This document shows, in pieces, positions 391 to 16,008 of a DNA stretch of 64,000 nt (position 1 is the stretch's first letter; each line of letters starts with the position of its first letter). Source of the stretch: Falsirhodobacter flavus (GTDB lineage Bacteria > Pseudomonadota > Alphaproteobacteria > Rhodobacterales > Rhodobacteraceae); the NCBI GenBank assembly GCA_029846755.1, contig JARWBI010000002.1, positions 62,001 to 126,000 on the forward strand. Direction: 5' to 3'. The notes under the pieces were generated by a model. That model was not told the origin of the DNA, ran no database searches, and worked only from the letters and a program-made list of their open reading frames with translations. A program made the translations under genes and the position numbers.

Positions 391-1451
391 TTGAAAGTCT
401 TTCGCGGATCGAAGGCATCGCGCACGCCCTCGAAGATGAACACCAGCAGCGACAGCATGATGGCGAAAGCGAAGAAGGCGGTGAAGGCCAGCCAGGGTGC
501 CTGCAGGTTCTGTTTCGCCTGAAGCGTCAACTCGCCCAGGGACGGCGCGGATGACGGCAGCCCGAAGCCGAGGAAGTCCAGCGTCGCAAGGCTGGCGATG
601 GCCCCGGTGATGATGAAGGGCAGCATGGTCAGCGTTGCGACCATTGCGTTGGGCAGAACGTGCCGCCACATGATCTTGCCATCCGACACGCCCAGCGCCC
701 GCGCCGCGCGGACATATTCGAAGTTCCGCGCCCGCAGGAATTCCGCCCGCACCACCCCTACCAGCGCCGTCCAGCCGAACAGCACGGTCAGGCCCACCAG
801 CAACCAGAAGTTCATCTGCCAGATCGCCGCCACGATGATGATGATGTAAAGCGTGGGGGTCGATCCCCAAAGCTCGATGATGCGCTGGAAGATCAGGTCG
901 GTCAGCCCGCCGAAATACCCCTGCACCGCCCCCGCCGCGACCCCCATCACCGAGGTCAGAAACGTCACGATCAGCGCAAAGCCGACCGACAGCCGGAAGC
1001 CGTAGATCACTCGCGCCAGCACGTCCCGCGCGGTGTCGTCCGTGCCAAGCCAGTGCTGCGCATCGGGGGGCGACGGCGCCGCGCGGCCAAGGTTGTTGAT
1101 CGTGTCATAGCTGTAGGGGATCGGCGGCCAGAGCATCCAGCCGTCGCCTTTCGCCGCCGCAACCGGATCGTCGAAGCAATCCACCGACCCGCCCGAGACG
1201 ATCAGGCACTGCACCTCGGGGGCCCGGTAATCGGCCTCGGTCTGGAAATCGCCGCCGAAGGCGGTTTCGGGATAGAACTTGGCGACGGGGACGAACCATT
1301 CGCCGTTATGGCTGACCAGCAGCGGCTTGTCGTTGGCGATCAGCTCGGCGAACAGCGACAGGCCGAACAGCACGGCAAAGATCCACAGCGACCATAGCGC
1401 GCGGCGGTTGGCTTTGAAATTGCGCCAGCGGCGGGCGTAAAGCGGGCTCAT
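387..1451 (-). CDS. yejE: Peptide ABC transporter permease YejE-like
   Basis: Inner-membrane permease of the Yej-type peptide importer, 354 residues, the usual length. A first membrane helix lies at about residues 20-40, followed by the long periplasmic insertion (about residues 41-150) typical of YejE. A block of helices from about 155 onward carries the BPD_transp_1 domain. The EAA loop that docks the ATPase is recognisable at about 245-268 (YVRAARALGVSDGKIMWRHV). It lies between yejB and yejF, overlapping each by four bases, so the three are co-translated. Function comes from family knowledge; the substrate range is not readable from the sequence. Confidence 0.92.
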   Translation of the reverse strand: MSPLYARRWRNFKANRRALWSLWIFAVLFGLSLFAELIANDKPLLVSHNGEWFVPVAKFYPETAFGGDFQTEADYRAPEVQCLIVSGGSVDCFDDPVAAAKGDGWMLWPPIPYSYDTINNLGRAAPSPPDAQHWLGTDDTARDVLARVIYGFRLSVGFALIVTFLTSVMGVAAGAVQGYFGGLTDLIFQRIIELWGSTPTLYIIIIVAAIWQMNFWLLVGLTVLFGWTALVGVVRAEFLRARNFEYVRAARALGVSDGKIMWRHVLPNAMVATLTMLPFIITGAIASLATLDFLGFGLPSSAPSLGELTLQAKQNLQAPWLAFTAFFAFAIMLSLLVFIFEGVRDAFDPRKTFK

Positions 1452-2515
1452 CCACGGCTCCCGAAGTCGATGCGCGGGTCGATCCAGACATACATCAGGT
1501 CGGACAGCAGCCCGACCAGAAGCCCGATCAGCCCGAAGACGTAAAGCGTGCCGAAGATCACCGGATAATCCCGGTCGATCGCCGCCTGAAGCCCAAGCCG
1601 GCCCAGACCATCAAGCGAGAAGATCGTCTCGATGATGAGGCTGCCGCCGAAGAAGACGCCCACGAACACCGCCGGAAAGCCCGCGACCACGATCAGCATC
1701 GCGTTGCGGAAGACATGGCCATACAGCACCCGGCTTTCGGTCAGGCCCTTGGCGCGGGCGGTCATCACGTATTGCTTCTTAATCTCGTCCAGAAAGCTGT
1801 TCTTGGTCAGCAGCGTCAGCGTGGCGAAGCTGGCGATGGTCGAGGCGATCACCGGCAGCGCGATGTGCCAGAAATAATCGACCACTTTTGCAAACAGCCC
1901 CAGTTCGGCCCAGTTGTCCGACACCAACCCCCGCGTCGGGAACCATTGCCAATAGGACCCGCCCGCGAACAGCACCAGCAGCATGATCGCGAACAGAAAA
2001 CCGGGTATCGCATAGGCGACCACGATCACCGCAGAGGTCCATGTGTCGAAGCGCGTGCCGTCCCGCGTCGCCTTGCGGATGCCCAGCGGGATCGAGATGG
2101 CATAGGCAATCAGCGTCGACCAAAGCCCCAGCGAGATCGACACCGGCATCTTCTCCAGCACCAGATCGACGACCGAGATCGACCGGAAGTAGCTTTCGCC
2201 GAAATCGAAGCGCAGGTAGTTGCCCATCATCGTCAGGAACCGTTCCAGCGGCGGCTTGTCGAAGCCGAACTGCTTTTCCAGCTCGTCGATGAATTCGGGC
2301 GGAAGACCCCGCGCGCCAAGATAGCGGTCGTCCCCTGCCCCCTGCTGCTGCGCGCCGGAAATCTGCGAAAAGGCGTCGCCCGACCCTTCCAGCCGCGCCA
2401 GAACCTGTTCGATCGGCCCGCCCGGCACGAACTGGGTCAGCACGAAGTTGATGAGCATGATCCCGATCAGCGTCGGAACGATCAGCGCCAGCCTGCGAAG
2501 GATATAGGCGAGCAT
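1448..2515 (-). CDS. yejB: Peptide ABC transporter permease YejB-like
   Basis: Second inner-membrane permease, 355 residues. The N-terminus (MLAYILRRLALIVPTLIGIM) is the classic first helix of DppB/YejB-type permeases, followed by an extended periplasmic segment and five further helices. The EAA loop YVMTARAKGLTESRVLYGH sits near residues 245-270. The ATG directly abuts the TAG of the upstream substrate-binding gene, and the 3' end overlaps yejE by four bases. Together with yejA, yejE and yejF this forms one minus-strand operon in the order A-B-E-F. Confidence 0.93.
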   Translation of the reverse strand: MLAYILRRLALIVPTLIGIMLINFVLTQFVPGGPIEQVLARLEGSGDAFSQISGAQQQGAGDDRYLGARGLPPEFIDELEKQFGFDKPPLERFLTMMGNYLRFDFGESYFRSISVVDLVLEKMPVSISLGLWSTLIAYAISIPLGIRKATRDGTRFDTWTSAVIVVAYAIPGFLFAIMLLVLFAGGSYWQWFPTRGLVSDNWAELGLFAKVVDYFWHIALPVIASTIASFATLTLLTKNSFLDEIKKQYVMTARAKGLTESRVLYGHVFRNAMLIVVAGFPAVFVGVFFGGSLIIETIFSLDGLGRLGLQAAIDRDYPVIFGTLYVFGLIGLLVGLLSDLMYVWIDPRIDFGSRG

Positions 2516-4414
2516 CTAGCGCAGCGTGCCCTGCGCCCGAAGCGCGTCGAACTTGGACTGGTCGAACCACCAAAGCCCATCGCCGCGCGAATAGGGAGGC
2601 TGCTGCCCCGGCTGGCCGAACACGTCCCAATAGGCGATCAGATACTGCCCGCTATACCAGTTCGGCACCCAAAGCTGTTTCGCACGCAGCACGCGGTCCA
2701 GCGCACGGGCGCGGGTGTCCAGTTCCTCGCGCGTTTTCGACTGGATGACCCGTTCGACCAGCGCGTCCACCACCGGATCGGCAATGCCCGAGATATTCGC
2801 CGACCCTTCGGAATTCGCCGCGTCCGAGCCGAAAAGCTGGCGCAGTTCCAGCGACGGGCTGGTGGACATCACGAACCGCCCCGGCATGATGTCGTAGTTG
2901 AAGTCCTTCTGCCGCTGCTGCATCTGCGCGCTGTCGATCCGCGTGAAGCGGGCATCCACGCCCAGACGGCGCAGGTTGGCGACATAAGGGTTCACCACGC
3001 GGTCCATCGTCGGGTTGTCGTCGATGAATTCGATGCTCAGCGTTTCGTTGTTGGAATTGCGGCGGATGCCGTCTTCGCCCACCGGCCAGCCGGCATCGTC
3101 CAGAAGCTTCGACGCGCGGCGCAACTCGCGCCGGTCAAGCTGCTGCTCGCCGCTGACGGGCGGGGTGAAGGCGGGCTGGTCGAACACTTCGGGCGGAAGC
3201 TCGTCCCTGAACTCCTCCAGCAGCGCAAGCTCGTCGCCTTGGGGCAGCCCCTCGGCCTGAAGTGGCGAGTTTTCGAAGAAGCTGTCGGTGCGTTTATACA
3301 GGCCATAGAACAGCGTCTGGTTGGTCCATTCGAAGTTGAACACCGCCGCGATGGCCTCGCGCACGCGGGGATCCTGAAACTTCTCGCGCCGCAGGTTGAA
3401 CCAGAAGCCCTGCGTGCCAGAGGGCGAATTGTCGGGCAGCTCCGCCTTGACGATCCGCCCCTCGTTCACCGCCGGAAAGTTGTAGCCCGTCGCCCAGATC
3501 AGCGACGAGAATTCCTGTTGGAACAGGTAATTGCCGGACTTGAACGCCTCGAACGCCGCCGTGTTGTCGAAATAGTATTCATAGCGGAAGCAGTCGAAAT
3601 TCGCGCTGCCGATATTTACCGGCAGATCCTTGCCCCAGTAGTCGGGATTGCGGCAATAGGTGATGGACCGCCCCGGCTGAGCGTTCTGGACCACATATTG
3701 CCCCGACCCGACCGGGGGCGTCATGGTGGACTGTTCGAAATCCACGTTCTCGTAATAATGTTCGGGCAGGATCGAAAGCCCGCCCGCCAGCATCGGCAGA
3801 TCGCGGGTGGCGGCGCCTTCGCGGAAGGTGAATTTGACCGTGTGATCATCCAGCGCCTCCACGCTTTCGATATCCTTCAGGATGATCTTGTAGACAGGCG
3901 AGCCCTTTTCCATCAGCACGTCAAAGGTGAACACCACATCCTGCGCCGTGATCGGCTGCCCATCCGAAAACTTCGCCTCAGGGCGCATGTGGAAGGTGAC
4001 CCAAGCGCGATCCTCGGGATATTCGAGGCTTTCGGCAATCAGGCCATAGGCGCTGTCCGGCTCGTCCGGCGATCCCGACAGCAAAGCGTCGTAAAGCAGT
4101 CCCAGCCCCTGCGCCGGTTCGCCCCGCAGGATGAACTGGTTCAGGCTGTCGAAGGTCTGACTGGCCCCGGTGCCGCGAAAGCTCATGGTGCCGCCCTTGG
4201 GCGCGTCGGGGTTCACAAAGTCGAAATGGGCGAAACCTTCGGGATATTTCAACTCGCCGAAGGTGGATATGCCATGGGCGTGGATGACACCTTCGGCATC
4301 CGGAGCAGGCACGAAGGCGGCTACGGGCGGTTCGGGAACGTCCTGTGCGACGGCGCCCGGTGCGATCAACGCAAGGGCCACAGATGCCGCCAGTCCCCAG
4401 GTCCGTTCCACCAT
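2516..4414 (-). CDS. yejA: Extracellular peptide-binding protein YejA-like (SBP family 5)
   Basis: Periplasmic solute-binding protein that delivers peptides to YejBE, 632 residues from the chosen start. The ATG at 4414 is preferred over upstream codons because AAGGAG lies just before it and because it leaves a clean Sec signal peptide: Arg near the start, a hydrophobic core ASVALALIAPG, and predicted cleavage after AVA at residue 23. The mature protein shows SBP_bac_5 features such as TFHMRPEAKFSDGQPITAQD and a C-terminal WYSGQYLIAYWD block. It is the first gene of the operon. The upstream region up to 4498 holds only a short spacer. Confidence 0.92.
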   Translation of the reverse strand: MVERTWGLAASVALALIAPGAVAQDVPEPPVAAFVPAPDAEGVIHAHGISTFGELKYPEGFAHFDFVNPDAPKGGTMSFRGTGASQTFDSLNQFILRGEPAQGLGLLYDALLSGSPDEPDSAYGLIAESLEYPEDRAWVTFHMRPEAKFSDGQPITAQDVVFTFDVLMEKGSPVYKIILKDIESVEALDDHTVKFTFREGAATRDLPMLAGGLSILPEHYYENVDFEQSTMTPPVGSGQYVVQNAQPGRSITYCRNPDYWGKDLPVNIGSANFDCFRYEYYFDNTAAFEAFKSGNYLFQQEFSSLIWATGYNFPAVNEGRIVKAELPDNSPSGTQGFWFNLRREKFQDPRVREAIAAVFNFEWTNQTLFYGLYKRTDSFFENSPLQAEGLPQGDELALLEEFRDELPPEVFDQPAFTPPVSGEQQLDRRELRRASKLLDDAGWPVGEDGIRRNSNNETLSIEFIDDNPTMDRVVNPYVANLRRLGVDARFTRIDSAQMQQRQKDFNYDIMPGRFVMSTSPSLELRQLFGSDAANSEGSANISGIADPVVDALVERVIQSKTREELDTRARALDRVLRAKQLWVPNWYSGQYLIAYWDVFGQPGQQPPYSRGDGLWWFDQSKFDALRAQGTLR

Positions 4415-4498
4415 GCCGCTCTCCTTGCCTTGCAATCGCGCCATCGTGGCCGCAATCGACGGCGGCCTCAAGTTGCGATTGCGTGAAACGGCGGGATC

Positions 4499-5949
4499 CT
4501 AGGATTTGAGCAGCGGGATGCCCATCGCGCGCTCGATCTGCGAACGGGCGTTCTTCAGGCCGTTCGCGTCGCTTGGCGTCTTCGACAGGGTGATCGAAGC
4601 CAGACCGCCATAGCTCTCTCGTGGCTCCAGCTTCGGATGCCCGTTGTCGGATTTGAACTGATACCCGTGCCGTATCAAAAGCGCTTCGACATCGGCGGCG
4701 AAGCGCTTCCTGTCCCCCGTCGCACGGCGCAGATCCTCGCGGAATTCCTCCAGCCCGGGCGAACGGGTCACGGTGTGGAGGAACCGTTCAAAGATCACGC
4801 AGGAGCGATTGTCGAGGCCGATCTGCTCGGATCGTTCCAGCACCTCCCGCACGGCCAGCCGCAGACGGTCGGCAAGCTCGCCCTCGTAAAGCTCTGGACC
4901 GATCCGTTCCGCAAGCTGCCCAAGTCCGATATCCGCCGCGTCGCGCGCCAATTCGCGGCTGCCTTCATGTTCGGCGACACGCATCTGCAAATCGCGGATT
5001 TGCGCTTTCAGTTCGCGATTCTCGCTTTCGTAAAGTTCGCGCCACTCTTGTGCGTCGCGCGCATCCTCGCGCCCTGAACGAAGCGCATTTTCCTGAAGGT
5101 CGGACCAGTCCCATCCGCCGGATGGCATCTGACCGCGCAGCCAAAGCGCCGCACCTTTGACCGCCGATTGCAGTTCCTGCGCCGAAGAAAAGCGCCCGCC
5201 GATGCGGAATTTCCGCACTATGCCGCGTTTCGGAAGCGCCAGACCGATCATACCGCCATAGACGTTTCCGCCCGCCATCGCATCCCGCAGACGGAACGAG
5301 AATTTGCGCGACGGCTCCACGACCACATGGGCGACCCCGCTGAGATCTCGTGCGAGGGCGACGATCTGCTTGCGGTCCAGTGGCAGGCCGTCTGCACCGA
5401 CCGACACATAGACGATCGGCAGGAAACCCGCCGCATCGCCCATCGTCGTGGATTTGGCCAGTTCGATGCCGTCGTCATCATCGGTAAGCCAATGCGGAGC
5501 AGTGCCGACCATCAGCAGGCCGTCTTCACCGCCCCAACCGTCTTCGATGATCGCCTTTACCAGATGTGGTTTCTTGGCATTGTCCAACTGGGCACCCGGC
5601 ATCCGCGCGACGCACTGGGTCCGCATTCGCAACAGGTCCTGCCCAGCCATTCCCATGTCGCGCCGGATCACACCTTCGGTGCGCCACGTCCGCCCGGCCT
5701 CGTCGGGGAACTCGTGCCGGAAGCCAAGCGCGACCCAGGAGTCGTCGGCTTTGGGAACACGCGGAACCGCAGACCCTCGCCACTTTCGGCACGCAGATGC
5801 AACTGTTCGCCGTCGTCATCGACAGCGGCATCGCCCGAAAGGATGGTGCTGTAGTTCGTCCCCTTCAGCCATGCCGCCACGGCGGCCAGCAATGCGGCAC
5901 GGTTCGGACTGGATCTGATCGGAAATTCGGTCGCAAAAGGCAGAATCAT
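4499..5949 (-). pseudogene. Conserved protein of unknown function, split by an apparent -1 base frameshift
   Basis: Two overlapping minus-strand reading frames look like one protein of about 480 residues. The first frame begins MILPFATEFPI at 5949 and reads sensibly to about GLRFRVFPK (near 5750), then degenerates into a Pro/Arg/Gly-rich tail ending at 5668. The second frame, open across the same DNA, reads WVALGFRHEFPDEAGRTWRT and joins the long downstream frame, which is annotated naively from GTG at 5671. Adding one base near 5748-5753, in a CCCAAA tract, restores a single frame. The downstream part has a coiled coil (EWRELYESENRELKAQIRDL). I do not recognise a function. It may be a true pseudogene, a sequencing error, or two coupled genes (the GTGA overlap at 5668-5671 mimics coupling). 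Confidence 0.6.
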
Positions 5950-6003
5950 ACACTCGGCAATCGGCGGGAATAACCCGCCGATCATCGTGTCACCACTACG
6001 GTT

Positions 6004-6516
6004 TTATTGCGTTTGCAGCCAGGCGATCAGGTTCGCGCGTTCCTCGGGGTTGGGCAGACCTGCGAAGGTCATCTTGGTGCCCGGCGCATATCCGCGCGGA
6101 TTTTCGAGGAAGTGGCTCAGGTTTTCCGCCGTCCATGTATCGCCCGCCATGCCGGCCAGTGCCGGGGAATAGGCGAAGCCTTCGGACGCGGCCTTGGCCT
6201 TGTCGACGATGCCGTTCAGATGCGGGCCGGTGGCGTCTGTGCCGTCCAGTTTGTGGCAGGCCTTGCACTTGTTGAACACGGCCTCGCCCTTCGACGCGTC
6301 GGCAGCGGCCAGCAGGTCTGCGAAGGGCACGGCATCCTCGGCCGCAGCTTCCTCGACCCCGGTGTCGATGGTATAGGCCTGCGCATGTTCCTCGTCGCCA
6401 TGGCTTGGCGTGCTGGTGGTATAGAGCGCCTCCGCCGCCCACGACCCCAGAAGAAGGACGAGCAGCGAGCCGCACCCGGCGCCCACCACTTTCGTCATCG
6501 TCATCGTATCGAACAT
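6004..6516 (-). CDS. cycM: Membrane-anchored cytochrome c (CycM / cytochrome cy-c552 type)
   Basis: Electron carrier tethered in the inner membrane, probably linking the bc1 complex to terminal oxidases. It has 170 residues from the ATG at 6516. An uncleaved N-terminal anchor (about residues 9-30, SLLVLLLGSW) is followed by an acidic Ala/Glu-rich linker. The class I cytochrome c domain has haem motif CKACH at 84-88 and the likely axial Met in GTKMTFAG at residue 149. The architecture (anchor, flexible linker, haem domain) matches CycM/cy of Rhodobacter and Paracoccus. A GTG 36 bases upstream is in frame but would disturb the anchor start. It is divergent from pheA. Confidence 0.9.
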   Translation of the reverse strand: MFDTMTMTKVVGAGCGSLLVLLLGSWAAEALYTTSTPSHGDEEHAQAYTIDTGVEEAAAEDAVPFADLLAAADASKGEAVFNKCKACHKLDGTDATGPHLNGIVDKAKAASEGFAYSPALAGMAGDTWTAENLSHFLENPRGYAPGTKMTFAGLPNPEERANLIAWLQTQ

Positions 6517-6622
6517 GTCGCTTGGTTCCCTGGCCTCATGTCTCCTCGGCACCCATCTATCCGCTTCCCTCCTTTCGTTTCAAGCGATAGTCGTTCCGGG
6601 ACCAGCCTTTGGGGAGACAGAC

Positions 6623-7441
6623 ATGACCGGACGCATCGCCTTTCAGGGGGAACTCGGGGCCTATTCCCATGCCGCCTGCCGCCAGTCGCGGCCCGGGATG
6701 GACGTGATCCCCTGCCGCACCTTCGAGGATGCGATCGAGGCCTGCCGTTCGGGCGAGGCAGACCTTGCCATGCTGCCGGTCGAGAATTCCACCTATGGCC
6801 GCGTGGCCGACATCCATTCGCTGCTGCCCAATTCCGGTCTGCATATCGTGGACGAGGCCTTCGTGCGGGTGCAGATCAGCCTGCTGGGCCTGCCGGGCGT
6901 GACGCTGCCCGAGGTGAAGCGGGCGATGAGCCATACCGTCCTGCTGGGTCAGGTGCGCGGGTTCCTGAAGGATCACGGCATCGCGGCGGTCACGGGCGCG
7001 GACACTGCCGGATCGGCGAAGATTGTGGCCGAAAAGGGCGAGCGGGAACTGGCGGCGCTGGCATCGGACCTTGCGGGCGAAATCTATGGCCTCGACGTGC
7101 TGGCGCGGGGGATCGAGGATCAGTCGAACAACACGACGCGGTTTCTGGTGATGTCGCGCGTGGCGGACCCGTCGCGGCGGGCGGCGAAAATGGTCACCAC
7201 CTTCACGTTCCGGGTGCGCAACATCCCGGCGGCGCTTTACAAGGCGCTGGGCGGGTTCGCGACCAACGGGATCAACATGACCAAGCTGGAAAGCTACATG
7301 GTCGGCGGATCGTTCGTCGCGACCGAGTTCTATGCCGATATCGAAGGCCACCCGGAAGATCCGAACGTGAAACTGGCGCTGGAGGAATTGGCGTATTTCA
7401 CGACCCATGTGAACGTGCTGGGCGTCTATCCCCGCGGGTGA
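6623..7441 (+). CDS. pheA: Prephenate dehydratase
   Basis: Converts prephenate to phenylpyruvate in phenylalanine biosynthesis. It is a monofunctional, cytoplasmic enzyme of 272 residues. The catalytic domain begins IAFQGELGAYSHAA and contains the conserved TTRF motif at 171-174. The C-terminal ACT regulatory domain starts near residue 193 (TFTFRVRNIPAALYKALGG) with KLES at 221-224, the expected phenylalanine feedback site. The start at 6623 follows GGGGAGA; longer in-frame starts would add an unrelated leader. No chorismate mutase domain is fused. Confidence 0.95.
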   Translation: MTGRIAFQGELGAYSHAACRQSRPGMDVIPCRTFEDAIEACRSGEADLAMLPVENSTYGRVADIHSLLPNSGLHIVDEAFVRVQISLLGLPGVTLPEVKRAMSHTVLLGQVRGFLKDHGIAAVTGADTAGSAKIVAEKGERELAALASDLAGEIYGLDVLARGIEDQSNNTTRFLVMSRVADPSRRAAKMVTTFTFRVRNIPAALYKALGGFATNGINMTKLESYMVGGSFVATEFYADIEGHPEDPNVKLALEELAYFTTHVNVLGVYPRG

Positions 7442-7442
7442 C

Positions 7443-7496
7443 GGGGGGACCGCCCGGCTCAGGCCCCTTTGGAGCCATCGCCGGGCGGTGCTGCCG
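7443..7496 (-). repeat. Structured palindromic element, copy 1 (between pheA and hemF stops)
   Basis: The element fills essentially all the DNA between two converging stop codons. A perfect 10-bp stem (ACCGCCCGGC at 7449-7458 with GCCGGGCGGT at 7480-7489) encloses a symmetric 3x3 internal loop and an inner 6-bp stem with loop AAA (as read on the minus strand). Flanks are CGGCAGC and CCCCCC. It is the inverted copy of the element at 8863-8921. It probably acts as a bidirectional terminator, though there is no T tract. Confidence 0.8.
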
Positions 7497-8348
7497 CTAG
7501 ACCCACTTGGCCAGCGGCGGCAGGGACATCAGGACGGCATTGGCGTCATGCCCCGATTCCAGCCCGAACTTGGTGCCGCGGTCATAGACGAGGTTGTATT
7601 CGGCATAGAGCCCGCGATGCACGAGCTGCGCGTCGCGGTCCGCCTCCGACCATTCGATATCGCGGCGCAGATCGGCCAGCGGCAGGAAGGCGGGCAGGAA
7701 CGCGCGCCCCACGGCTTGGGTGAAGGCGAAGTCTGCCTCCCAGTCGCCCGTGTTCAGATCGTCGTAGAAAATACCGCCGACGCCCCGTGCCCTTCCCCGG
7801 TGGGGGATGAAGAAATACTCGTCCGCCCATGCCTTGAACCGCGCGTAATAGTCGTGCCCGCTATCGTCGCAGGCCCCGCGCAGGGTGTCGTGGAAATGCG
7901 CGGTATCCTCGTGATATTCGATGCAGGGGTTCAGGTCCGCGCCGCCGCCGAACCACCATGCGCCGGGGGTCCAGAACATCCGCGTGTTCATATGCACCGC
8001 CGGACAATGGGGGTTCCGCATATGCGCGACAAGGCTGATCCCCGACGCCCAGAACCGCGGGTCCGCATCCATTCCCGGAACGCCCCGCGCCGCCATCGCC
8101 TTCTGCGCCGGGCCCGACAGCACCCCATGCACGGTGGACACGTTCACGCCCACCTTCTCGAACAGCCGCCCGCCGCGCATCACGCTCATCAGGCCGCCGC
8201 CCCCATCGGGGCGGGTCGTCGGCGTCACCTCGAACCGGCCCGGCGGCAGGTCCGACCGGGTCGTATCCTCCGCCGCTTCGAACGCGGCGACGATCGTGTC
8301 GCGCAGGTTGCGAAACCATTCCGAGGCGCGGGTTTTCTGCTGGTCCAT
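7497..8348 (-). CDS. hemF: Oxygen-dependent coproporphyrinogen III oxidase
   Basis: Aerobic oxidative decarboxylation of coproporphyrinogen III to protoporphyrinogen IX in haem/(bacterio)chlorophyll synthesis. It has 283 residues, close to the usual 300. Family blocks are visible: VSTVHG, HMNTRMFW, WWFGGGADLNPCI, the His/Asp-rich FHDTLRGACD, and HRGRARGVGGIFYDDL. The ATG at 8348 follows AGGAGAAGACCC. The gene faces pheA across repeat copy 1. Confidence 0.95.
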   Translation of the reverse strand: MDQQKTRASEWFRNLRDTIVAAFEAAEDTTRSDLPPGRFEVTPTTRPDGGGGLMSVMRGGRLFEKVGVNVSTVHGVLSGPAQKAMAARGVPGMDADPRFWASGISLVAHMRNPHCPAVHMNTRMFWTPGAWWFGGGADLNPCIEYHEDTAHFHDTLRGACDDSGHDYYARFKAWADEYFFIPHRGRARGVGGIFYDDLNTGDWEADFAFTQAVGRAFLPAFLPLADLRRDIEWSEADRDAQLVHRGLYAEYNLVYDRGTKFGLESGHDANAVLMSLPPLAKWV

Positions 8349-8448
8349 GGGTCTTCTCCTATGCACCAAGGTCTATCACCCGGCGCCGATGCGGACCATT
8401 GGAATGGGCACGCCCCCGCGCTAAATATTGCCGCAGAGGAGACATGCG

Positions 8449-8856
8449 ATGAAACGCCTTTCCATTCTTCCCCTGCTTCTGGTCCTCTCGGCCTGCGCCA
8501 CGCAGCAGGAACGCTGTATCAGCACCGTGACGCGCGACCTGCGCACGGTGGACAGCCTGATCGCGAAATCCGACGCCACTCTTCGCCGCGGCTACGCGCT
8601 GGAAGAATATGAGACCTCGCGCCCCATCTATCGCCAATGCGGCTGGTATCCTCGCGTGCTGAGCGACGGGCGCATCGTCGCCGGCGCGCCGCGCATGTGC
8701 TGGGATGACGTGACGGAAACCCGAACACGGGCCAAGGCGGTGGACTTGAATCAGGAACGCCGCCTGCTGGACGGCCTGCGCGAGAAACGCACGCAGCTTG
8801 CCGCGCAGGCCGGCCCCGCCGTCGCCCGCTGCGAGGCGGCCTTCCCCGAAGAGTAA
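8449..8856 (+). CDS. Small putative lipoprotein of unknown function
   Basis: A 135-residue protein with an N-terminal lipoprotein signal (MKRLSILPLLLVLSAC) and lipobox LSAC at residues 16-19 with Cys19. The mature part holds several Cys (ERCIST, QCGWYP, MCWDD, ARCEA) and a C-terminal helical segment. It is expected to sit in the periplasm or outer membrane. An AGAGGAGA site precedes both an ATG at 8444 (different frame) and the chosen ATG at 8449. I do not recognise the family. It is flanked by hemF (divergent) and tsaC (convergent, across repeat copy 2). Confidence 0.75.
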   Translation: MKRLSILPLLLVLSACATQQERCISTVTRDLRTVDSLIAKSDATLRRGYALEEYETSRPIYRQCGWYPRVLSDGRIVAGAPRMCWDDVTETRTRAKAVDLNQERRLLDGLREKRTQLAAQAGPAVARCEAAFPEE

Positions 8857-8862
8857 GGCGCG

Positions 8863-8921
8863 CGGCAGCACCGCCCGGCGATGGCTTCCCGCAAGGGAGG
8901 CCTGAGCCGGGCGGTCCCCCC
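8863..8921 (+). repeat. Structured palindromic element, copy 2 (between lipoprotein and tsaC stops)
   Basis: The outer stem ACCGCCCGGC (8870-8879) / GCCGGGCGGT (8906-8915) and both flanks (CGGCAGC, CCCCCC) are identical to copy 1 read on the minus strand. The same 3x3 internal loop (GAT/TGA) follows. The inner stem is 8 bp here (one T-G wobble), closed by a GCAA tetraloop, versus 6 bp with loop AAA in copy 1. The element spans almost the whole gap between stops at 8856 and 8926. Confidence 0.8.
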
Positions 8922-8925
8922 CCGG

Positions 8926-9843
8926 TTACCTCGGGGCCGCCGCCCGGCGCAAACGGTCGTTGATCGCCAGCCCCAGCCCATGTTCCGGCACCGGAGCCAC
9001 GGCGATCACGCCATCCTCGCCTGCCAGCCGGTCCGCCTCGCGCAGCATGTGGAACAGGTTCGCCGCCGCCTCCACCAGATCGCCCGAGGGCGACAGATCC
9101 AAGCCCCCCGTCCCGAAGCCGATCGCGACCTCTCCCGGTCCCGGCACCGCGTTCAGCCGCACCCGCCCGCGCGGCGCGTAATGCGACAGCAGTTGCCCCG
9201 GCGCCGATGGTTTCGCCGCGTCCCCGCCCACTGCCAGCGGCCCCAGCACCGCCTCCAGCGCCTCGCGCGGAACGCCGCCGGGGCGCAGCAGCACCGGCGC
9301 GCCCACCAGCCCAAGGATCGTCGATTCCACCCCAACGGCCGAGGCTCCGCCTTCCAGCACCGCCTCGATCCGCCCCGAAAGCCCGTCCAGCACATGCTCA
9401 GCCCGCGTCGGGCTGATCCGCCCGGACGGATTTGCGGACGGCCCGGCCAGCGGCCCGCCGAAATCGCGCAGCAAGGCCCGCGTCACCGGATGCGCCGGCA
9501 CGCGCACCGCCACGCTGTCCAGCCCCGCCGTCACCAGCGGCGACAGCCCTGCATCCTCGCGCAGCGGCAGCACCAGCGTCAGCGGCCCCGGCCAGAACGC
9601 CGCCACTCGTTCGAATCCCTCCGGCAATACGGCATATCGCGCGACCGCCTCGGCATCGGGCAGATGCACGATCAGCGGGTTGAACTGCGGCCGCCCCTTC
9701 GCCTCGTATATCCGTGCCACCGCCGTATCCGAGCGCGCATCGCCGCCAAGGCCATAGACCGTCTCGGACGGGAAGGCGACCAGCCCGCCGCCGCGCAGGA
9801 TTTGCGCGGCTTCGGCGGTATCTGTCAGAAGGCGGGTCTTCAT
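8926..9843 (-). CDS. tsaC: L-threonylcarbamoyladenylate synthase, Sua5 type
   Basis: Makes threonylcarbamoyl-AMP from Thr, bicarbonate and ATP, the first step of the universal t6A37 tRNA modification. It has 305 residues, so the long Sua5 form: an N-terminal YrdC/TsaC domain (GGLVAFPSETVYGLGGDA, then AKGRPQFNPLIVHL with the nucleotide-binding K/R residues) plus a C-terminal Sua5 domain from about residue 215 (PGQLLSHYAPRGRVRL). The start at 9843 is chosen because upstream in-frame codons run into the divergent acyl-CoA dehydrogenase promoter region. No clear Shine-Dalgarno sequence is visible. Confidence 0.92.
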   Translation of the reverse strand: MKTRLLTDTAEAAQILRGGGLVAFPSETVYGLGGDARSDTAVARIYEAKGRPQFNPLIVHLPDAEAVARYAVLPEGFERVAAFWPGPLTLVLPLREDAGLSPLVTAGLDSVAVRVPAHPVTRALLRDFGGPLAGPSANPSGRISPTRAEHVLDGLSGRIEAVLEGGASAVGVESTILGLVGAPVLLRPGGVPREALEAVLGPLAVGGDAAKPSAPGQLLSHYAPRGRVRLNAVPGPGEVAIGFGTGGLDLSPSGDLVEAAANLFHMLREADRLAGEDGVIAVAPVPEHGLGLAINDRLRRAAAPR

Positions 9844-9916
9844 GACGCAGCGTCCCGTATTGCTGGCGGAAAACCCTTGGCTATCCTCCCCCCCTGCCGC
9901 ATGCAAGGAGGAGACG

Positions 9917-11443
9917 ATGCCCTATACCGCCCCGCTGGACGACTTCCGCCTCCTGAGCGGCCTGCAAGGCAGCGACGATGCCCATGACATCCTGACCGGG
10001 GCCGCGCGGCTGTGCGAGACGACCCTTGCCCCGCTGCAACGCGTCGGCGATACCCACCCCGCGCGGCTGGAGAATGGCGTCACCCGCACCCCGCCCGGTT
10101 TCGCCGAAGGCTATCGCGCCATCGCGGACGGGGGCTGGATCGGCATCTGCGCATCCCCGGATCACGGGGGCCTCGGCCTCCCGCTGTCGGTTGCGACGGC
10201 GGTGAACGAGATGATGGCTTCGGCCTGCCTTGCGCTGCAACTGAACCCGCTGATGACCCAAGGCCAGATCGAGGCTTTGGAGCATCACGCCAGCCCCGAG
10301 ATGCAGGCGCTGTATCTGCCCAAGCTCATCTCGGGCGAATGGTCGGGCACGATGAACCTGACCGAGCCGCAAGCCGGATCGGACGTCGGCGCGCTGACCA
10401 CCCGCGCGGTGCCGGAAGGAGAGACGTTCCGCATCACCGGGCAGAAGATCTACATCACATGGGCCGACAACGACTTCACCGACAACGTCTGCCATCTGGT
10501 CTTGGCGCGTCTGCCCGATGCCCCGGCGGGAACCAAGGGGATCAGCCTGTTCATGGTGCCGAAGACCCTGCCCGATGGCAGCCGTAACGCGCTGCGCGTC
10601 CTCAGCCTTGAACACAAGCTGGGACTGCATGGATCGCCGACCGCCGTGATGGAGTATGACGGCGCGACGGGCTGGATCGTCGGCGCGCCGCACAAGGGGA
10701 TGGCGGCAATGTTCACGATGATGAACAACGCCCGCCTCGGGGTTGCAACCCAAGGCATCGGCGTGGCCGAAGCCGCCTGCCAACTGGCCGAGGCCCATGC
10801 CGCCCAGCGCCAGCAGAACGGCCCCATCGCGAACCATCCCGACGTGCGGCGGATGCTGGCCCGGATGCGGGCGGAGACATTCGCCGCCCGAGCCATCGCC
10901 CTGTCCTGCGCCGCTGCCAGCGACGCCGGGGACACTGCCCGCGCGGCCTTCCTGACGCCCATCGCCAAATCCTTCGGGACCGAAACCGGGATGCGGGTGG
11001 CCGACCTTGGGATTCAGGTTCATGGCGGCATGGGCTATATCGAAGAAACCGGCGCGGCGCAGCTTTGGCGCGACGTGCGCGTCACCGCGATCTATGAAGG
11101 CACCAACGGCATTCAGGCCATCGACCTGATCGGACGCAAGCTGTCGGATGACGGCGCCGCCGCCTTTGCGCTTCTGGACGATCTGCACCCGGATCTGGCA
11201 GATGCCGCGCAGACCCTGCGAGCGGTCACGCAGGTGCTTCTGGCCCGCCCCGTGCAGGACCGTCTGGCCGGGGCCACGCCCTATCTTCGTGCCTTTGCGC
11301 TGGTGCTTGGCACCCATTGGCACCTGCGCGCCGCCGAATCCGACCCCGCCCGCGCCCCGCTCGCCCGCTTCATGCAGCGCAATGTGTTGCCCGAGCACGC
11401 CGCCCTCGCGTCCGAGGCGCTGGAGGATGTGCCAAGCGCGTGA
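9917..11443 (+). CDS. Acyl-CoA dehydrogenase family protein
   Basis: FAD-dependent alpha,beta-dehydrogenation of an acyl-CoA, feeding electrons to ETF (the ETF-ubiquinone oxidoreductase is at 16009). It has 508 residues. The N-terminal helical domain, FAD/substrate motif MNLTEPQAGSDVG, QKIYITWAD, and the C-terminal segment GGMGYIEETGAAQLWRD...YEGTNGIQAIDL are clear; the Glu of YEGTNGIQ is the expected catalytic base. The protein resembles the about 590-residue class with an extra C-terminal domain, but that domain is short here. The start follows AAGGAGGAG. Substrate chain length cannot be told. Confidence 0.88.
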   Translation: MPYTAPLDDFRLLSGLQGSDDAHDILTGAARLCETTLAPLQRVGDTHPARLENGVTRTPPGFAEGYRAIADGGWIGICASPDHGGLGLPLSVATAVNEMMASACLALQLNPLMTQGQIEALEHHASPEMQALYLPKLISGEWSGTMNLTEPQAGSDVGALTTRAVPEGETFRITGQKIYITWADNDFTDNVCHLVLARLPDAPAGTKGISLFMVPKTLPDGSRNALRVLSLEHKLGLHGSPTAVMEYDGATGWIVGAPHKGMAAMFTMMNNARLGVATQGIGVAEAACQLAEAHAAQRQQNGPIANHPDVRRMLARMRAETFAARAIALSCAAASDAGDTARAAFLTPIAKSFGTETGMRVADLGIQVHGGMGYIEETGAAQLWRDVRVTAIYEGTNGIQAIDLIGRKLSDDGAAAFALLDDLHPDLADAAQTLRAVTQVLLARPVQDRLAGATPYLRAFALVLGTHWHLRAAESDPARAPLARFMQRNVLPEHAALASEALEDVPSA

Positions 11444-11499
11444 CAGGACAGGCGGAATCGGCTATGCGGCAATCAGAGGACAAGGGAAGGAACGGACCC

Positions 11500-11634
11500 G
11501 TGGCGGAACACAAAGTCGGCAGCATGGACATCACCACCCAGGAAAAGACCTTTGCGGGCTTCCTGTGGTTCGTGAAATGGGGCTGCATCCTGATCGCGGC
11601 GATCCTGATCTTCCTCGCGCTCGTCAATATCTGA
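11500..11634 (+). CDS. aa3-type cytochrome c oxidase small subunit IV
   Basis: A 44-residue one-helix subunit of the aa3 oxidase. The pattern, a short charged N-terminus (EHKVGSMDITTQEKTFAGF) followed by one transmembrane helix ending FLALVNI, is diagnostic of the bacterial aa3 subunit IV family. GTG at 11500 is chosen because family members begin M-A-E/D-H-K; an AAGGAACGG site precedes it, and an ATG at 11464 would add 12 non-conserved residues. The stop overlaps the next ATG by one base (TGATG). The catalytic oxidase subunits are not in this window. Confidence 0.85.
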   Translation: MAEHKVGSMDITTQEKTFAGFLWFVKWGCILIAAILIFLALVNI

Positions 11635-12242
11635 TGCGCCTGATCCTGTGCCTGCTGGGCCTGCTGACCCTCGCCGCCTGTGCCGAGCCGAAATGGGCAG
11701 ACGATGCGGCCGTGACCCGCGCGGTCTACACCTCGCAGGCGCCTACCTCGGTCACACTGTTCACCGTGGTGCGCAAGCGCGACGGGTCCAGCGGGCATTC
11801 GGGGCTGATGGTGAACGGGGCGCAGCGGATCATCTTCGATCCCGCCGGAAGCTGGAACCACCCCAACGTGCCGGAACGCAACGACGTTCTGTATGGCATG
11901 ACGGACCAGATGGTCGCCTTCTACATCGACTATCACGCGCGCGAGACGTATGACGTGGTCGAACAGACCGTGCCCGTCACGCCGCAGGTCGCGGCGATGG
12001 TCGCGCAGCGGATGCAATCCTATGGCGCGGTTCCCAAGGCGCATTGTGCCCGCGCGATCACCGGGGTTCTGGACGGGGTGCCGGGGTTCGAGGATGTGGG
12101 CCGCACCTGGTATCCGACGAAGCTGATGCAGCGGTTCGACCGGCTGCCTGGCGTCGTCAAACGCACCATCACCGATGACAGCGCCGACAAGAACCACGGC
12201 GTGCTGTTGGTGCAGGCGGGCGATCCGCGCCTGACCAACTAA
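11634..12242 (+). CDS. Putative lipoprotein of unknown function
   Basis: A 202-residue protein with a lipoprotein signal (MRLILCLLGLLTLAAC, lipobox LAAC, Cys16). The mature part begins ...VTLFTVVRKRDGSSGHSGLMVNG, with conserved-looking His and Cys (SGHSGLMV, KAHCARAI). The GHSGLM...HCAR arrangement is reminiscent of NlpC/P60-like cysteine-peptidase folds, but I cannot assign it. It is translationally coupled to the oxidase subunit by a one-base overlap. Its 3' end overlaps that of the convergent azlD by four bases. Confidence 0.75.
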   Translation: MRLILCLLGLLTLAACAEPKWADDAAVTRAVYTSQAPTSVTLFTVVRKRDGSSGHSGLMVNGAQRIIFDPAGSWNHPNVPERNDVLYGMTDQMVAFYIDYHARETYDVVEQTVPVTPQVAAMVAQRMQSYGAVPKAHCARAITGVLDGVPGFEDVGRTWYPTKLMQRFDRLPGVVKRTITDDSADKNHGVLLVQAGDPRLTN

Positions 12243-12553
12243 CCGATCAGGGCGAGCGTGGTGTAAAGCACCGCCGCCCCCGCCCCGATCGCCCAAAGCG
12301 TATTTCTGGTCCAGACCGCCACCGCGATCGTCGCCGCCGCAGCGGCCAGCCTTGCGGGGTCAGGCTGACCGCCCGTGGCGGCGGGCCAGAGCACCCCCGG
12401 CGCGATCAGCGCGGGCAGCACCGCCACCGCGGTATAGCGCAGGTGCCGCAGCGCCCATTCGGGAAACTGCCGCCCGCCCGCAAACGCCAGAAAGGACAGC
12501 CGCAGCAGGTATGTCCCGACCCCGAGGCCAAGGATGATGATCCAGAGCTTCAT
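12239..12553 (-). CDS. azlD: AzlD family branched-chain amino acid exporter small subunit
   Basis: A 104-residue membrane protein of about four helices, partner of AzlC in branched-chain amino acid (and analogue) export. The start MKLWIIILGLGVGTYLLRLSFL is typical of AzlD. ATG at 12553 overlaps the azlC stop at 12550 by four bases, so the pair is co-translated. No adjacent Lrp/AsnC regulator is present. Confidence 0.88.
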   Translation of the reverse strand: MKLWIIILGLGVGTYLLRLSFLAFAGGRQFPEWALRHLRYTAVAVLPALIAPGVLWPAATGGQPDPARLAAAAATIAVAVWTRNTLWAIGAGAAVLYTTLALIG

Positions 12554-13239
12554 GCCGCGCACCCCTTCTGCCAAAGCTCGACCTGCGCGCCAACGACCAT
12601 CGCCAGTGCCGCCGCCACCAGAACCCCCGTGCCATAGGGCAGGAAGGCGAAGAACAGCGATGCCGCCACCGACACGATGCAGGCCGCCACCTGCGGCAGC
12701 GTCCGCAGCATCGGCCCGATCATCGCAAGGAAGGTGATGGGCAGCGCGAAATCAAGCGCCATCCATGGCGGGATCGAGCTGCCCGCGACCGCGCCGATCA
12801 GGCTTGCCAGATACCATGCCGGCATGATCGTGGCCGAGGCCCCGGCAAAATAGGCGACCTTCTGTGCGGTCGTCATCTCGCGCCGTTCGAATTCGGCCAT
12901 GCTGCCGGCAAAGTTCTGGTCGACCAGCGCATAGGCGATCAGCGCCCGCTGCCACATCGGCGCCGCGCCGAAATGCGGGGTCAGCGCGGCGGAATACATC
13001 GCCAGCCGAAGGTTCACCGCCAGCGCGGTCGCAAGGATGATGAGCGTCGGCGCATTGTCGGCATAAAGCTGAAGTGCCGCGAACTGCGAGGCGCCCGCGA
13101 TGACGAGCACGGAAAAGCCCATCACCTCCAGCAGGTTCAGCCCGGCCTCGGTCCCGACCACGCCGAACAGAAGACCGAAGGGAGAGACGACGAACACGAA
13201 CGGGATGGAGCCGCGGAGACCATCGCGGAAGGGCGACAT
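12550..13239 (-). CDS. azlC: AzlC family branched-chain amino acid exporter large subunit
   Basis: A 229-residue inner-membrane protein with the AzlC pattern GLRGSIPFVFVVSPFGLLFG, followed by FSVLVIAGASQFAALQL and NLRLAMYSAAL. It exports branched-chain amino acids together with AzlD. The frame stays open far upstream without coding character (Pro/Arg/Ala-rich, antisense to mobA). The ATG at 13239 is chosen because GAGGT lies seven bases before it and the protein then starts where family members do. It is divergent from mobA. Confidence 0.9.
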   Translation of the reverse strand: MSPFRDGLRGSIPFVFVVSPFGLLFGVVGTEAGLNLLEVMGFSVLVIAGASQFAALQLYADNAPTLIILATALAVNLRLAMYSAALTPHFGAAPMWQRALIAYALVDQNFAGSMAEFERREMTTAQKVAYFAGASATIMPAWYLASLIGAVAGSSIPPWMALDFALPITFLAMIGPMLRTLPQVAACIVSVAASLFFAFLPYGTGVLVAAALAMVVGAQVELWQKGCAA

Positions 13240-13319
13240 GACGATACCTCGGGGGTTTACGAATTGCCTTGTGACGGGCATAGGCGGATCATGGGGCGGA
13301 TGCAACGGCGGCGGGGCGA

Positions 13320-13877
13320 ATGCGGATCTTCGGCGTGATCCTTGCGGGGGGCGAAGGGCGGCGGATGGGCGGCGCGGACAAGGCGCTGCTGCCGCTTGGG
13401 GGCGTTTCGATGATCGCACGCGTCCGCGCCCGGCTGGAGCCGCAGGTGGAGGCGCTGGCGATTTCGGCCAATGGCGATCCGGCCCGGTTCCGCGGGACCG
13501 TCCTGCCCGATGACGATCCGCAGGGGCCCCTTTCAGGCGTGCTTGCGGGTCTGCGCTGGGCGGCGGGGCTGGGTGCGGATGCCGTCGTGACTGCGCCCGT
13601 GGATGTGCCGTTCCTGCCCGGCGATCTGGTGCCGATGCTGTGCCTGCGCTGGCCGGGTGCGGCGCTGGCGCGGGCGGGCGGGCGGCTGCACCCCGCCTGT
13701 GCGCTTTGGCCGGTGACGGCGGCCCCTTCGCTGGAGGCATGGCTGGCATCGGGCCAGCGCCGCGTCGGGGATTTCGCCGCCAGCATCGGGGCGACGCCAG
13801 TCGATTTCCCCGATCCGCGCGAGTTTCTGAACCTGAACACCCCCGAGGATCTGGCCGCCGCGCAGGCGCTGCTGTGA
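13320..13877 (+). CDS. mobA: Molybdenum cofactor guanylyltransferase
   Basis: Transfers GMP from GTP to Mo-molybdopterin, giving the bis-MGD cofactor of DMSO-reductase-family enzymes. It has 185 residues, typical length. The nucleotidyltransferase loop LAGGEGRRMGGADKALLPLGG-type motif starts at residue 8; the metal-binding Asp region (PDDDPQGPLSGVLAGL) and TAPVDVPFLP follow. The C-terminus (FLNLNTPEDL) is the usual MobA ending. The stop overlaps the GTG of the next gene (GTGA). Confidence 0.93.
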   Translation: MRIFGVILAGGEGRRMGGADKALLPLGGVSMIARVRARLEPQVEALAISANGDPARFRGTVLPDDDPQGPLSGVLAGLRWAAGLGADAVVTAPVDVPFLPGDLVPMLCLRWPGAALARAGGRLHPACALWPVTAAPSLEAWLASGQRRVGDFAASIGATPVDFPDPREFLNLNTPEDLAAAQALL

Positions 13878-14449
13878 GGATCGAACGCGGCCTGCCGGAC
13901 GCCCTGCGCGATCAGGCAGCCGAACTCTATTGGGAGGCGTTCGGCCCGAAGCTGAACCGCGTGATGGGGCCGTCGCCGCGCGCCCGCGCTTTCATCGCCC
14001 GCGCGATCCGGGCCGATCACGTGATCGCCGCAACCGAAGGCGCGCAGCTTCTGGGCCTTGCCGGCTTCAAGACATCGCAAGGCGCGTTCGTCGGCGGTTC
14101 GGCGCGCGAGATGCGCCGCGCCTATGGGATCTTCGGCGCGACATGGCGGGGCGTCGCGCTGTCGATGCTGCACACGGATGTGGACAACGAACGGTTCCTG
14201 ATCGACGGGCTTTGCGTGGACGCCAGGTGGCGCGGGCAAGGGATCGGGACGGCGCTGATCGCCGCGATCTGCCACGAAGGCGCGCGGCGCGGATACGATG
14301 CGGTGCGGCTGGACGTGGTGGACACCAACCTGCGCGCGCGGGCGCTGTACGAGCGGTTGGGATTCGTCGCGGTCGGAAGTGACCGGCTGGGTGCCGCCGC
14401 GCCCTTGTTCGGCTTCGGCGCGACGGTCACGATGGTGCGCGGGCTTTAG
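13874..14449 (+). CDS. GNAT family N-acetyltransferase
   Basis: A 191-residue acetyl-CoA-dependent acetyltransferase, cytoplasmic. The coenzyme A pyrophosphate-binding motif is LCVDARWRGQGIGTALI (R-G-Q-G-I-G), followed by LDVVDTNLRARALYERLGF, the usual motif B. The GTG start at 13874 overlaps the mobA TGA, so it is read with mobA; the substrate is unknown. The 3' end overlaps the next convergent gene by four bases. Confidence 0.85.
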   Translation: MRIERGLPDALRDQAAELYWEAFGPKLNRVMGPSPRARAFIARAIRADHVIAATEGAQLLGLAGFKTSQGAFVGGSAREMRRAYGIFGATWRGVALSMLHTDVDNERFLIDGLCVDARWRGQGIGTALIAAICHEGARRGYDAVRLDVVDTNLRARALYERLGFVAVGSDRLGAAAPLFGFGATVTMVRGL

Positions 14450-15282
14450 TCGAAGGTGCCCGTCGCGCGGCCCAGCAGCATGAAGGCGCGGGCCGTGCGG
14501 GTCTGGCCGAACCATTCCAGTTCGGTATCAGTGGCCGCGCGGATGAAGCCCGACACGCTGCGGTCGAAGGCGCGCAGGAAGTGGTGGGCGGCGTCGCGAA
14601 AGATCTGATCCTCGCGCATCCGCTGGCCGACGACGTTCAGCACGTTGCGGTCCGGGATGCCGCCAAGCTGGGCGACAGACGGCCCACGCTCGCCCGCGCC
14701 GAAACGCCGCCATGCCTCTGCCGGGGCGGGATCGAGCGGCAGATCGTCCATGAACACCCCATCCTGCGACATGAGCGTCAGGACGTCCTGCGCGGCACGG
14801 ATGACCTTGGCCGTGTCGTGATCGGCCAGCGCGAGGTTCAGGGCGTTGATCCCCTCCTCGTCATCCTCGGAATCGGGGAAGTTCATCGCGACGATGTAAT
14901 CGGCGATGGTCAGCTGCGACGGCTCCGGCACGTCCAGCGCCAGTGCGGCCTGTTCCTCTGCCGGGGCGGGGCGTTGCGGCGGGGCGCGCACGGCGGCGGG
15001 GCGCGGCGGCGCGTTCTGGCGCTGCACGTCCAGCGCCATGCGCAGCCGTTCCGCCTCGGCCCGCAGAAGCCGGACCGACCGCAGGGTAGAAACCAGCCCC
15101 ACGATCATCGCCAGCGGCAGCACCATCAGGAATGCCGTCATCAGAAGCCCAGGCCCCTGCCCCTCGGGTTGCGACAGCCACCAGAACAGAAGCGTGCCGA
15201 ACCAGGCCGCGCCCGCAAGCGCGCCCGCCACCTCGATCTGGCCCAGCGGCTCGTCGGGATGGGTTTTGACCGGACCGCTCAT
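14446..15282 (-). CDS. Conserved membrane protein of unknown function
   Basis: A 278-residue protein with two predicted membrane helices at about residues 19-37 and 44-65, then a charged coiled segment (TLRSVRLLRAEAERLRMAL), a Pro/Ala-rich linker and a C-terminal globular domain of about 160 residues (TIADYIVAMNFPDSEDDEEG onward). I do not recognise a named domain. It is the second gene after greA, sharing one base with the greA stop (TGATG), so it is probably co-transcribed with greA. Confidence 0.75.
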   Translation of the reverse strand: MSGPVKTHPDEPLGQIEVAGALAGAAWFGTLLFWWLSQPEGQGPGLLMTAFLMVLPLAMIVGLVSTLRSVRLLRAEAERLRMALDVQRQNAPPRPAAVRAPPQRPAPAEEQAALALDVPEPSQLTIADYIVAMNFPDSEDDEEGINALNLALADHDTAKVIRAAQDVLTLMSQDGVFMDDLPLDPAPAEAWRRFGAGERGPSVAQLGGIPDRNVLNVVGQRMREDQIFRDAAHHFLRAFDRSVSGFIRAATDTELEWFGQTRTARAFMLLGRATGTFD

Positions 15283-15752: not shown

Positions 15753-16008
15753 CGGCCCTTACCAGTAAAAGCAAAGCCACGGGCCCGGAATGGGCGCACG
15801 TGACTCGGGTCTGTCTTCCCCATCACCTGAACCGATGGGCGCGGGGAATGCAAGCACAATGCCGGAAGCAGGCGGAAGCGTGTCGCAACGTGGCGCGAGG
15901 ACGGCGGGAAAGTGCTGTCGGGTCAAGATTGACCTTGGCAGGGCCTTGCGTCACAAAACCTTGTTTCAAGATCAGCCAGGGGCCACCGCCCAAGCCGGGA
16001 GCGACATC

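Follow-up and report, generated by a model that had tools for sequence, protein, structure and literature searches.

A covarying hairpin element at gene ends in Falsirhodobacter flavus and other Rhodobacteraceae

Two inverted hairpins in the window (the whole stretch of 64,000 nucleotides analysed here) were found to belong to a dispersed family of structured elements. The covariance-model searches proposed in the preliminary description recovered more copies in the same genome and in relatives, as that description had supposed. The evidence points to a conserved structured element at gene ends, probably an undescribed RNA or single-stranded DNA structure. The strand starting with GYGGCARC, referred to below as the plus strand of the element, can fold into a GGCA mini-hairpin, a 10-bp helix, a tandem G.A and a variable inner hairpin. 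As to function, we infer, with a probability of roughly 40%, a protein-recognised 3'-end hairpin that would insulate gene ends, act in RNA and have spread by lineage-specific copying. This reading ranks above a mobile single-stranded DNA hairpin, which is less probable, an ordinary terminator, which is improbable, and a small RNA, the least likely of the four. Covariation of this strength around fixed non-canonical landmarks is, in our judgement, unusual for a bacterial gene-end element.

The two window copies and their fold

The preliminary description had reported two inverted copies of one hairpin, and both were confirmed at 7443-7497 (minus) and 8862-8921 (plus) (Table 1). The locations stood; the bounds were shifted, each copy being one base longer at its 5' end because the common 5' flank is GCGGCAGC. 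Comparison of the copies bore out the identical flanks, the 10-bp outer stem (ACCGCCCGGC/GCCGGGCGGT) and the 3x3 internal loop of GAT and TGA. The inner stems differ but pair fully, with 6 bp and an AAA loop in copy 1 and 8 bp and a GCAA loop in copy 2. Four strands were folded together with 200 shuffles each, and 0, 0, 1 and 1 of the shuffles folded as well as the real sequence. The exact arm pattern CCGCCCGGC-N8..40-GCCGGGCGG occurred only at the two window places in the 4.02-Mb genome; its reversed control had 0 matches in the same 4.02 Mb. A chance pair of hairpins was ruled out by the BLAST matches, the rarity of the exact pattern, the family search and the covariation.

The stop codon positions agreed with the claim that each copy sits between two converging stops. 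At copy 1 these are the pheA TGA (7439-7441), 1 base away, and the hemF TAG (7497-7499, minus) at -1, which overlaps the copy by one base. At copy 2 they are the TAA of the small ORF (8854-8856) and the TAA of sua5 (8926-8928, minus), at distances of 5 and 4 bases. The N-terminus of the small ORF contains what we take to be a lipobox.

Table 1. Positions of the element copies, their parts and the adjoining genes in the window.
Feature	Position	Strand	Details
Element copy 1	7443..7497	minus	pheA/hemF junction; covariance model R3, 74.0 bits
Copy 1 mini-hairpin, GC-GGCA-GC	7490..7497	minus	aligned copies
Copy 1 outer helix, 5' arm, 10 bp	7480..7489	minus	folding and alignment
Copy 1 outer helix, 3' arm	7449..7458	minus	folding and alignment
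Copy 1 GAT/TGA (tandem G.A plus U.U) around 6-bp inner hairpin, loop AAA	7459..7479	minus	
Copy 1 C-rich 3' tail	7443..7448	minus	
Element copy 2	8862..8921	plus	small lipoprotein-like ORF/sua5 junction; R3, 69.8 bits
Copy 2 mini-hairpin, GC-GGCA-GC	8862..8869	plus	aligned copies
Copy 2 outer helix, 5' arm	8870..8879	plus	folding and alignment
Copy 2 GAT/TGA around 8-bp inner hairpin, GCAA loop	8880..8905	plus	
Copy 2 outer helix, 3' arm	8906..8915	plus	folding and alignment
Copy 2 C-rich 3' tail	8916..8921	plus	C run extends to 8923
pheA, prephenate dehydratase	6515..7441 (ORF bounds)	plus	opposing gene of copy 1
hemF, oxygen-dependent coproporphyrinogen oxidase	7497..8369 (ORF bounds)	minus	same sense as copy 1
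Small ORF, lipoprotein-like N-terminus	8428..8856	plus	same sense as copy 2
sua5-type L-threonylcarbamoyladenylate synthase	8926..9906	minus	opposing gene of copy 2

A dispersed family with one structured strand

A BLAST search of the whole genome with 101 bases around copy 1 returned a third copy (E 1.4e-15), copy 2 (3.3e-14) and a fourth copy (1.5e-5). Covariance model R1 was built from the four BLAST-found copies, copy 1 included. It gave ten matches in the source genome with E from 1.4e-12 to 5.1e-5, plus two weak ones, one of which was the reverse strand of copy 1. Model R2, built from 25 matches, recovered the same ten and one weaker match. The 10 strong copies of this genome carry several stem sequences. 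A core pattern with up to 3 mismatches was too loose, with 24 forward and 17 reverse hits in the source genome against 7 and 8 in the control.

Copies were present in 5/7 Falsirhodobacter genomes. In the Rhodobacteraceae sample, 16/295 genomes matched at E <= 0.01: eight on good rows, three on doubtful rows (L068, L070, L072) and five only on rejected rows (L063, L066, L067, L069, L071). The search with R3 matched 8/120 genomes at E <= 0.001, two of which (G093, G148) rested on rejected rows and two (G068, G103) on doubtful ones. Occurrence was thus patchy across other Rhodobacteraceae, and absence is weak evidence, since the best 92, 19 (295-genome sample) or 46 (120-genome sample) candidates per genome were scored. 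The genome G215, of another genus, had ten matches, all with the expected fold. In a pattern scan, 13 of 36 loci formed the outer stem, which in a few had one mismatch, and the other 23 did not (by eye); the 13 came from records labelled Rhodobacter, Cereibacter, Luteovulum, Falsirhodobacter, Tabrizicola or Rhodobacteraceae. Records labelled Cereibacter ovatus, C. johrii and Luteovulum azotoformans contained copies; we take these to be closely related to Rhodobacter sphaeroides, which would open the element to genetics and RNA-seq.

Loci L063, L066, L067 and L071, which have a common coding-like sequence and were judged protein-coding by eye, were left out before the counts, as was L069, which had no proper outer stem. 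Alignment A5 excluded L037 (27.7 bits), the weak reverse-strand matches, and L039 and L043, two close copies from G004. Alignment A6 (40 sources) excluded most G004 copies and L078 and still contained L068 and L070. Alignment A8 (51 sources, 52 distinct curated copies) excluded the doubtful L068, L070, L072, L115-L119 and L127 and the repeat loci L124-L126 and L128.

The 52 curated copies were about 53-61 nt long and had one architecture: a mini-hairpin G-Y-GGCA-R-C, a 10-bp outer helix, a tandem G.A and a variable inner hairpin. Among the 50 copies with letters at the 5' foot, 49 fitted GYGGCARC and one, L065, had GTGGAAAC; the GGCA loop was found in 49/50. Mini-hairpin pair 2-7 was C-G in 37 of these 50 copies, U-A in 11, U-G in 1 and unpaired in 1; copies beside pfkB showed both main states (e.g. 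L084, L136). The outer helix was exactly 10 bp without a gap in 52/52. The tandem G-A pairs, earlier suggested as possible, were present as GA/GA beside the outer helix in 51/52 copies, and the stretch between the two GA motifs ranged from 15 to 23 nt. A U.U followed the tandem G.A in 24/40 (A6 set). The least kept outer pairs were 16-50 (14/52 not paired) and 17-49 (12/52 not paired), largely because nine copies have another tandem G.A at this place, displaced outward by one pair. The C-rich 3' tail occurred in the window copies and in the aligned copies.

In A8, which was fitted to a model leaning towards structure and whose copies were chosen by the scores of such models, standard pairs filled 96.0% of 932 pair cells, and two-sided changes were found in 16/18 pairs. 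The covariation score was 0.591, against 0.176 in shuffles (0/500 reached 0.591) and 0.078-0.116 in the slid control. Selection on structure, which had been suggested from the outer and inner stems, was therefore upheld, pair-keeping changes lying far above shuffled and slid controls. Because fixed landmarks ten base pairs apart are combined with a freely varying inner hairpin, the element looks like a protein recognition site.

The GCGGCAGC strand had 58 G-U and 0 A-C cells (A8, 52 copies), an asymmetry that is somewhat inflated because covariance models tolerate G-U more than A-C. A G-U on one strand is an A-C on the other; therefore, the GCGGCAGC strand is the structured strand, a result that fits RNA and single-stranded DNA equally. 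The earlier, smaller A6 set had 40 G-U cells and 1 A-C cell, the latter from the doubtful L068. When the loci were grouped, G-U was favoured in 16 of 17 informative groups out of 23 (p 0.0003, the groups not being fully independent). Folding energies did not separate the strands in the 52 copies: for RNA the plus strand was more stable in 31 and the minus strand in 21 (p 0.16), and for DNA the split was 25 to 27 (p 0.54). In both window copies, the minus strand was slightly more stable than the plus strand.

The GNNA loop and the tandem G.A are RNA-like motifs, and an extra 3' hairpin with pair-keeping changes was seen by eye in several G215 copies. Both would suit an RNA whose body is the element, either a small trans-acting RNA or one processed from a 3'-UTR. 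This explanation is very unlikely. The alignment of 52 copies contained no conserved unpaired seed; the inner loop is variable; nothing pointed to a promoter; and the ten dispersed copies have unrelated neighbours.

Position at gene ends and the terminator reading

At the C-rich end of the 10 strong copies in the source genome, the opposing stop was -6 to +4 bases away in eight and inside the element loop in two (AMP-binding and ceramidase-like). The opposing genes were pheA, sua5, a ceramidase-like gene, an adhC-like gene, a glycosyltransferase, a squalene-synthase-like gene, anmK, folD, an AMP-binding enzyme and purU. On the 5' side, a same-sense gene ended before the element in 8/10 and a tandem gene started in 2/10. 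The same-sense stop lay -1 to 5 bases before the element in seven copies (hemF, the small ORF, hisN, universal-stress-like, eno, metallophosphoesterase-like and tldD), and the eighth gene, ychF-like, stopped 110 bases before it. The two tandem cases were adhC-like>gph-like and squalene-synthase-like>alkA-like. The names adhC, gph, alkA, ychF, hinT and lhr, and the labels metallophosphoesterase-like, ceramidase-like, squalene-synthase-like and universal-stress-like, are presumed from the sequences. Neighbours outside the source genome are crude script gene calls, except where a family model is cited. At L035, L047 and L055, and at L005 and L048, the stop of the opposing frame lay inside the terminal loop; the element would therefore encode the end of the opposing protein.

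In more than one Falsirhodobacter species, the element was kept at the eno/anmK, tldD/AMP-binding, metallophosphoesterase/folD and purU junctions. Elsewhere in the Rhodobacteraceae, ten copies adjoined a pfkB-family kinase gene at its 3' end. The gene across from pfkB was a sulfotransferase (L096, L100, L106), an ABC transporter (L061) or a tandem hinT-like gene (L059, L084, L112); the remaining loci of this type were L064, L081 and L136. The kinases formed two groups, sharing about 80% and about 50% identity with the L106 kinase, and may therefore represent more than one gene. Some G215 copies were farther from both neighbour genes, as judged from crude script gene calls.

The hemF-lipoprotein pair was kept in 7/7 Falsirhodobacter genomes. 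It lay between pheA and sua5, and had elements at its ends, only in the source genome (G000) and G004; the inverted copies therefore bound a segment that is sited elsewhere in relatives. The element after hemF was absent in 5/5 other Falsirhodobacter genomes beyond the closest species. In these five, hemF was followed by an lhr-like gene (four) or another gene, and it abutted its neighbour in four, G005 having a longer spacer with another hairpin. Judged from hemF in these five genomes, the element is dispensable at gene ends. The hemF-lipoprotein neighbourhood at window 6515-9906 differs from that of 5/6 other Falsirhodobacter genomes, with an element at both borders.

The window copies had been proposed to serve as bidirectional terminators, with the remark that no T tract was present. 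The remark was correct for both copies, no T tract following the hairpin on either strand; the terminator reading was not supported. An intrinsic terminator has a G+C hairpin, which was found, and a U tract directly after it, which was not. The plus strand continued into the C-rich tail and the minus strand into GCTGCCGC, and the U-tract terminator class was rejected on this basis. A terminator scan of window 1-20000 gave 12 sites, against 12.4 in shuffles. The element could still be an ordinary bidirectional, or Rho-assisted, terminator hairpin common to two convergent genes, and this is improbable. It is a strong G+C hairpin that fills short convergent gaps, T runs occurred about 28-33 nt after it in two G215 copies (L076, L122), and a weak terminator-like match (5 bp, tail TTACTCTTCG) was found at the minus-strand edge of copy 2. 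A terminator does not need a conserved mini-hairpin, a tandem G.A or a fixed 10 bp, however, and only one strand carries the conserved non-canonical pairs and the excess of G-U over A-C. In addition, 2/10 strong copies in the source genome lie between tandem, not convergent, genes, and at L075 of G215 the opposing side has its own hairpin, with a T-rich tail, beside the element.

A proposed RNA boundary, a possible mobile DNA hairpin and known systems

In the preferred reading, the plus strand would act as RNA and form the 3' end of a transcript heading for the opposing gene. A putative protein would recognise the mini-hairpin and the tandem G.A, two fixed landmarks separated by about one helical turn. 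The protein would turn the hairpin into a boundary that sets the 3' end of the arriving transcript and protects it. Such a boundary could prevent antisense extension of the transcript into the opposing gene, the stop codon of which touches the element. The copies probably arose by lineage-specific duplication and would then have been kept by compensatory change. The RNA boundary is favoured because of the covariation, the 10-bp ruler, the GA/GA motif, the GGCA loop, the strand asymmetry, the gene-end position and the retention beside pfkB. Against it stand the tandem cases, the strand-neutral folding energies, the inflated G-U count, the dispensability and the patchy presence. In adhC-like>gph-like, squalene-synthase-like>alkA-like and pfkB>hinT-like (L059, L084, L112), the plus strand has no same-sense gene to feed it, and a plus-strand RNA would need antisense transcription there. 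A narrower version holds that the element is a new class of protein-read RNA boundary, in which a Rhodobacteraceae protein recognises the GGCA mini-hairpin and the tandem G.A, separated by exactly 10 bp, and stops antisense transcription at the 3' edge of genes; this is rather unlikely. If the element acts as RNA, a dedicated protein and gene insulation without U-tract terminators in a high-G+C group are implied.

A strong rival, though a doubtful one, is a REP- or MITE-like non-autonomous mobile element, whose plus strand would be a single-stranded DNA hairpin read by a recombinase or transposase. Gene ends would then be the places where insertions are tolerated. The copies form lineage-specific sets: three G000 loci have one outer stem, nearly the same in G004, and eight of the ten G215 copies have an outer arm ending in CGAC. 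Two inverted copies bound the hemF-lipoprotein pair at junctions absent from five other Falsirhodobacter genomes, and at two loci the opposing stop is in the element loop, as after insertion into a gene end. A mobile origin also fits copies without a plus-strand gene. On the other side, a search for the RAYT family (Y1_Tnp, PF01797), the only transposase family searched for, gave 0 matches in the source genome (51 contigs, completeness 99.83), with 5/14 control genomes positive. A single query against phages gave no match. Three queries against plasmids gave two records: a 1.58-Mb Pseudorhodobacter replicon with a complete copy next to pfkB, and a record covering only 32% of the query. Stems differ among many copies of one genome, and pfkB-type loci keep the element across genera. 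The RNA boundary is weakened by the tandem cases, and the mobile element by the lack of Y1_Tnp and the retention beside pfkB in several genera. If the element acts as single-stranded DNA, a RAYT-free dispersal system is implied.

REP/BIME sequences with RAYT (TnpA_REP) are short imperfect palindromes in intergenic regions or 3'-UTRs, with a 5' foot GTAG/GGAG and inverted pairs. The element is likewise an intergenic or 3'-UTR short imperfect palindrome with a conserved 5' foot by a mismatched hairpin and inverted pairs. Its foot is GYGGCARC, however, its stems covary rather than being alike, there are about 10 copies, and no Y1 transposase was found in the genome. The REP/RAYT class was rejected for the missing RAYT, the missing GTAG/GGAG foot and the lack of many near-identical intergenic copies. 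attC ends are RYYYAAC and GTTRRRY. The attC sites of integrons and the OTH-22-1 motif are, in excerpts from their descriptions, folded strand-specific hairpins like the element, but the element has no RYYYAAC 5' end and its two ends are not complementary. The attC class was rejected because neither end was seen in the aligned copies (by eye). In a kink-turn, a tandem G.A lies beside a 3-nt bulge. The tandem G.A then U.U of the element is kink-turn-like; this class was rejected because no bulge lies between the G.A, present in 51/52 copies, and the outer helix.

The nearest published relatives found were Br-REP1 and Br-REP2 of Bradyrhizobium, described in excerpts of the source as 3'-UTR repeats (PMC5082802). 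They resemble the element as alphaproteobacterial 3'-UTR repeats, and one Br-REP is reported there in overlapping 3'-UTRs of convergent genes, with three stem-loops (PMC5082802). The same excerpts give about 200 sites, and at least 50 sites, for Br-REP1 and Br-REP2 in B. japonicum and define both by a sequence consensus and a predicted fold (PMC5082802). The printed consensus sequences differ from the element by eye (PMC5082802). HRC-28-1 and HRC-8-4, known from excerpts of another source, are structured motifs from comparative genomics, as is the element (PMC8632094). HRC-28-1 was likewise proposed to occupy a 3'-UTR whose downstream neighbour is an opposing gene, but it has six stems and occurs mostly in Polynucleobacter (PMC8632094). 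HRC-8-4 occurs only in Rhodobacterales and, unlike the element, has a U run and lies mainly between cco operons (PMC8632094). Among the matches listed in the open-licence literature, titles and abstract starts contained no description of the element.

Rfam searches in E-value mode over window 7300-9050 and L084 5550-5800 gave only sub-gathering matches, including one across the L084 element (17.2 bits against 46). In gathering mode, 12 loci gave only a cobalamin riboswitch, away from the element. A known Rfam RNA was rejected, as no match at the element was above gathering. The cobalamin riboswitch was located at L076:1675-1883, about 120 bases after a G215 element. In G215, a further hairpin of the CGACGCC-GGCA-GGCGGCG type lies directly after the element at L075, L076, L077, L078, L060, L121 and L122; its stem varies and the pairing is largely kept (by eye). 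A second gene-end repeat, similar to CTTTCATCTTGGCAAAAATACCTCCGCCGGAGGC, was observed in G215 and G264. It lies about 60-100 bases before the element at L074, L076, L077, L078, L121 and L122, with a variant at L060, and also occurs in L072 and L117. A strict pattern detected it in L072, L074, L077 and L078, and the others were found by eye.
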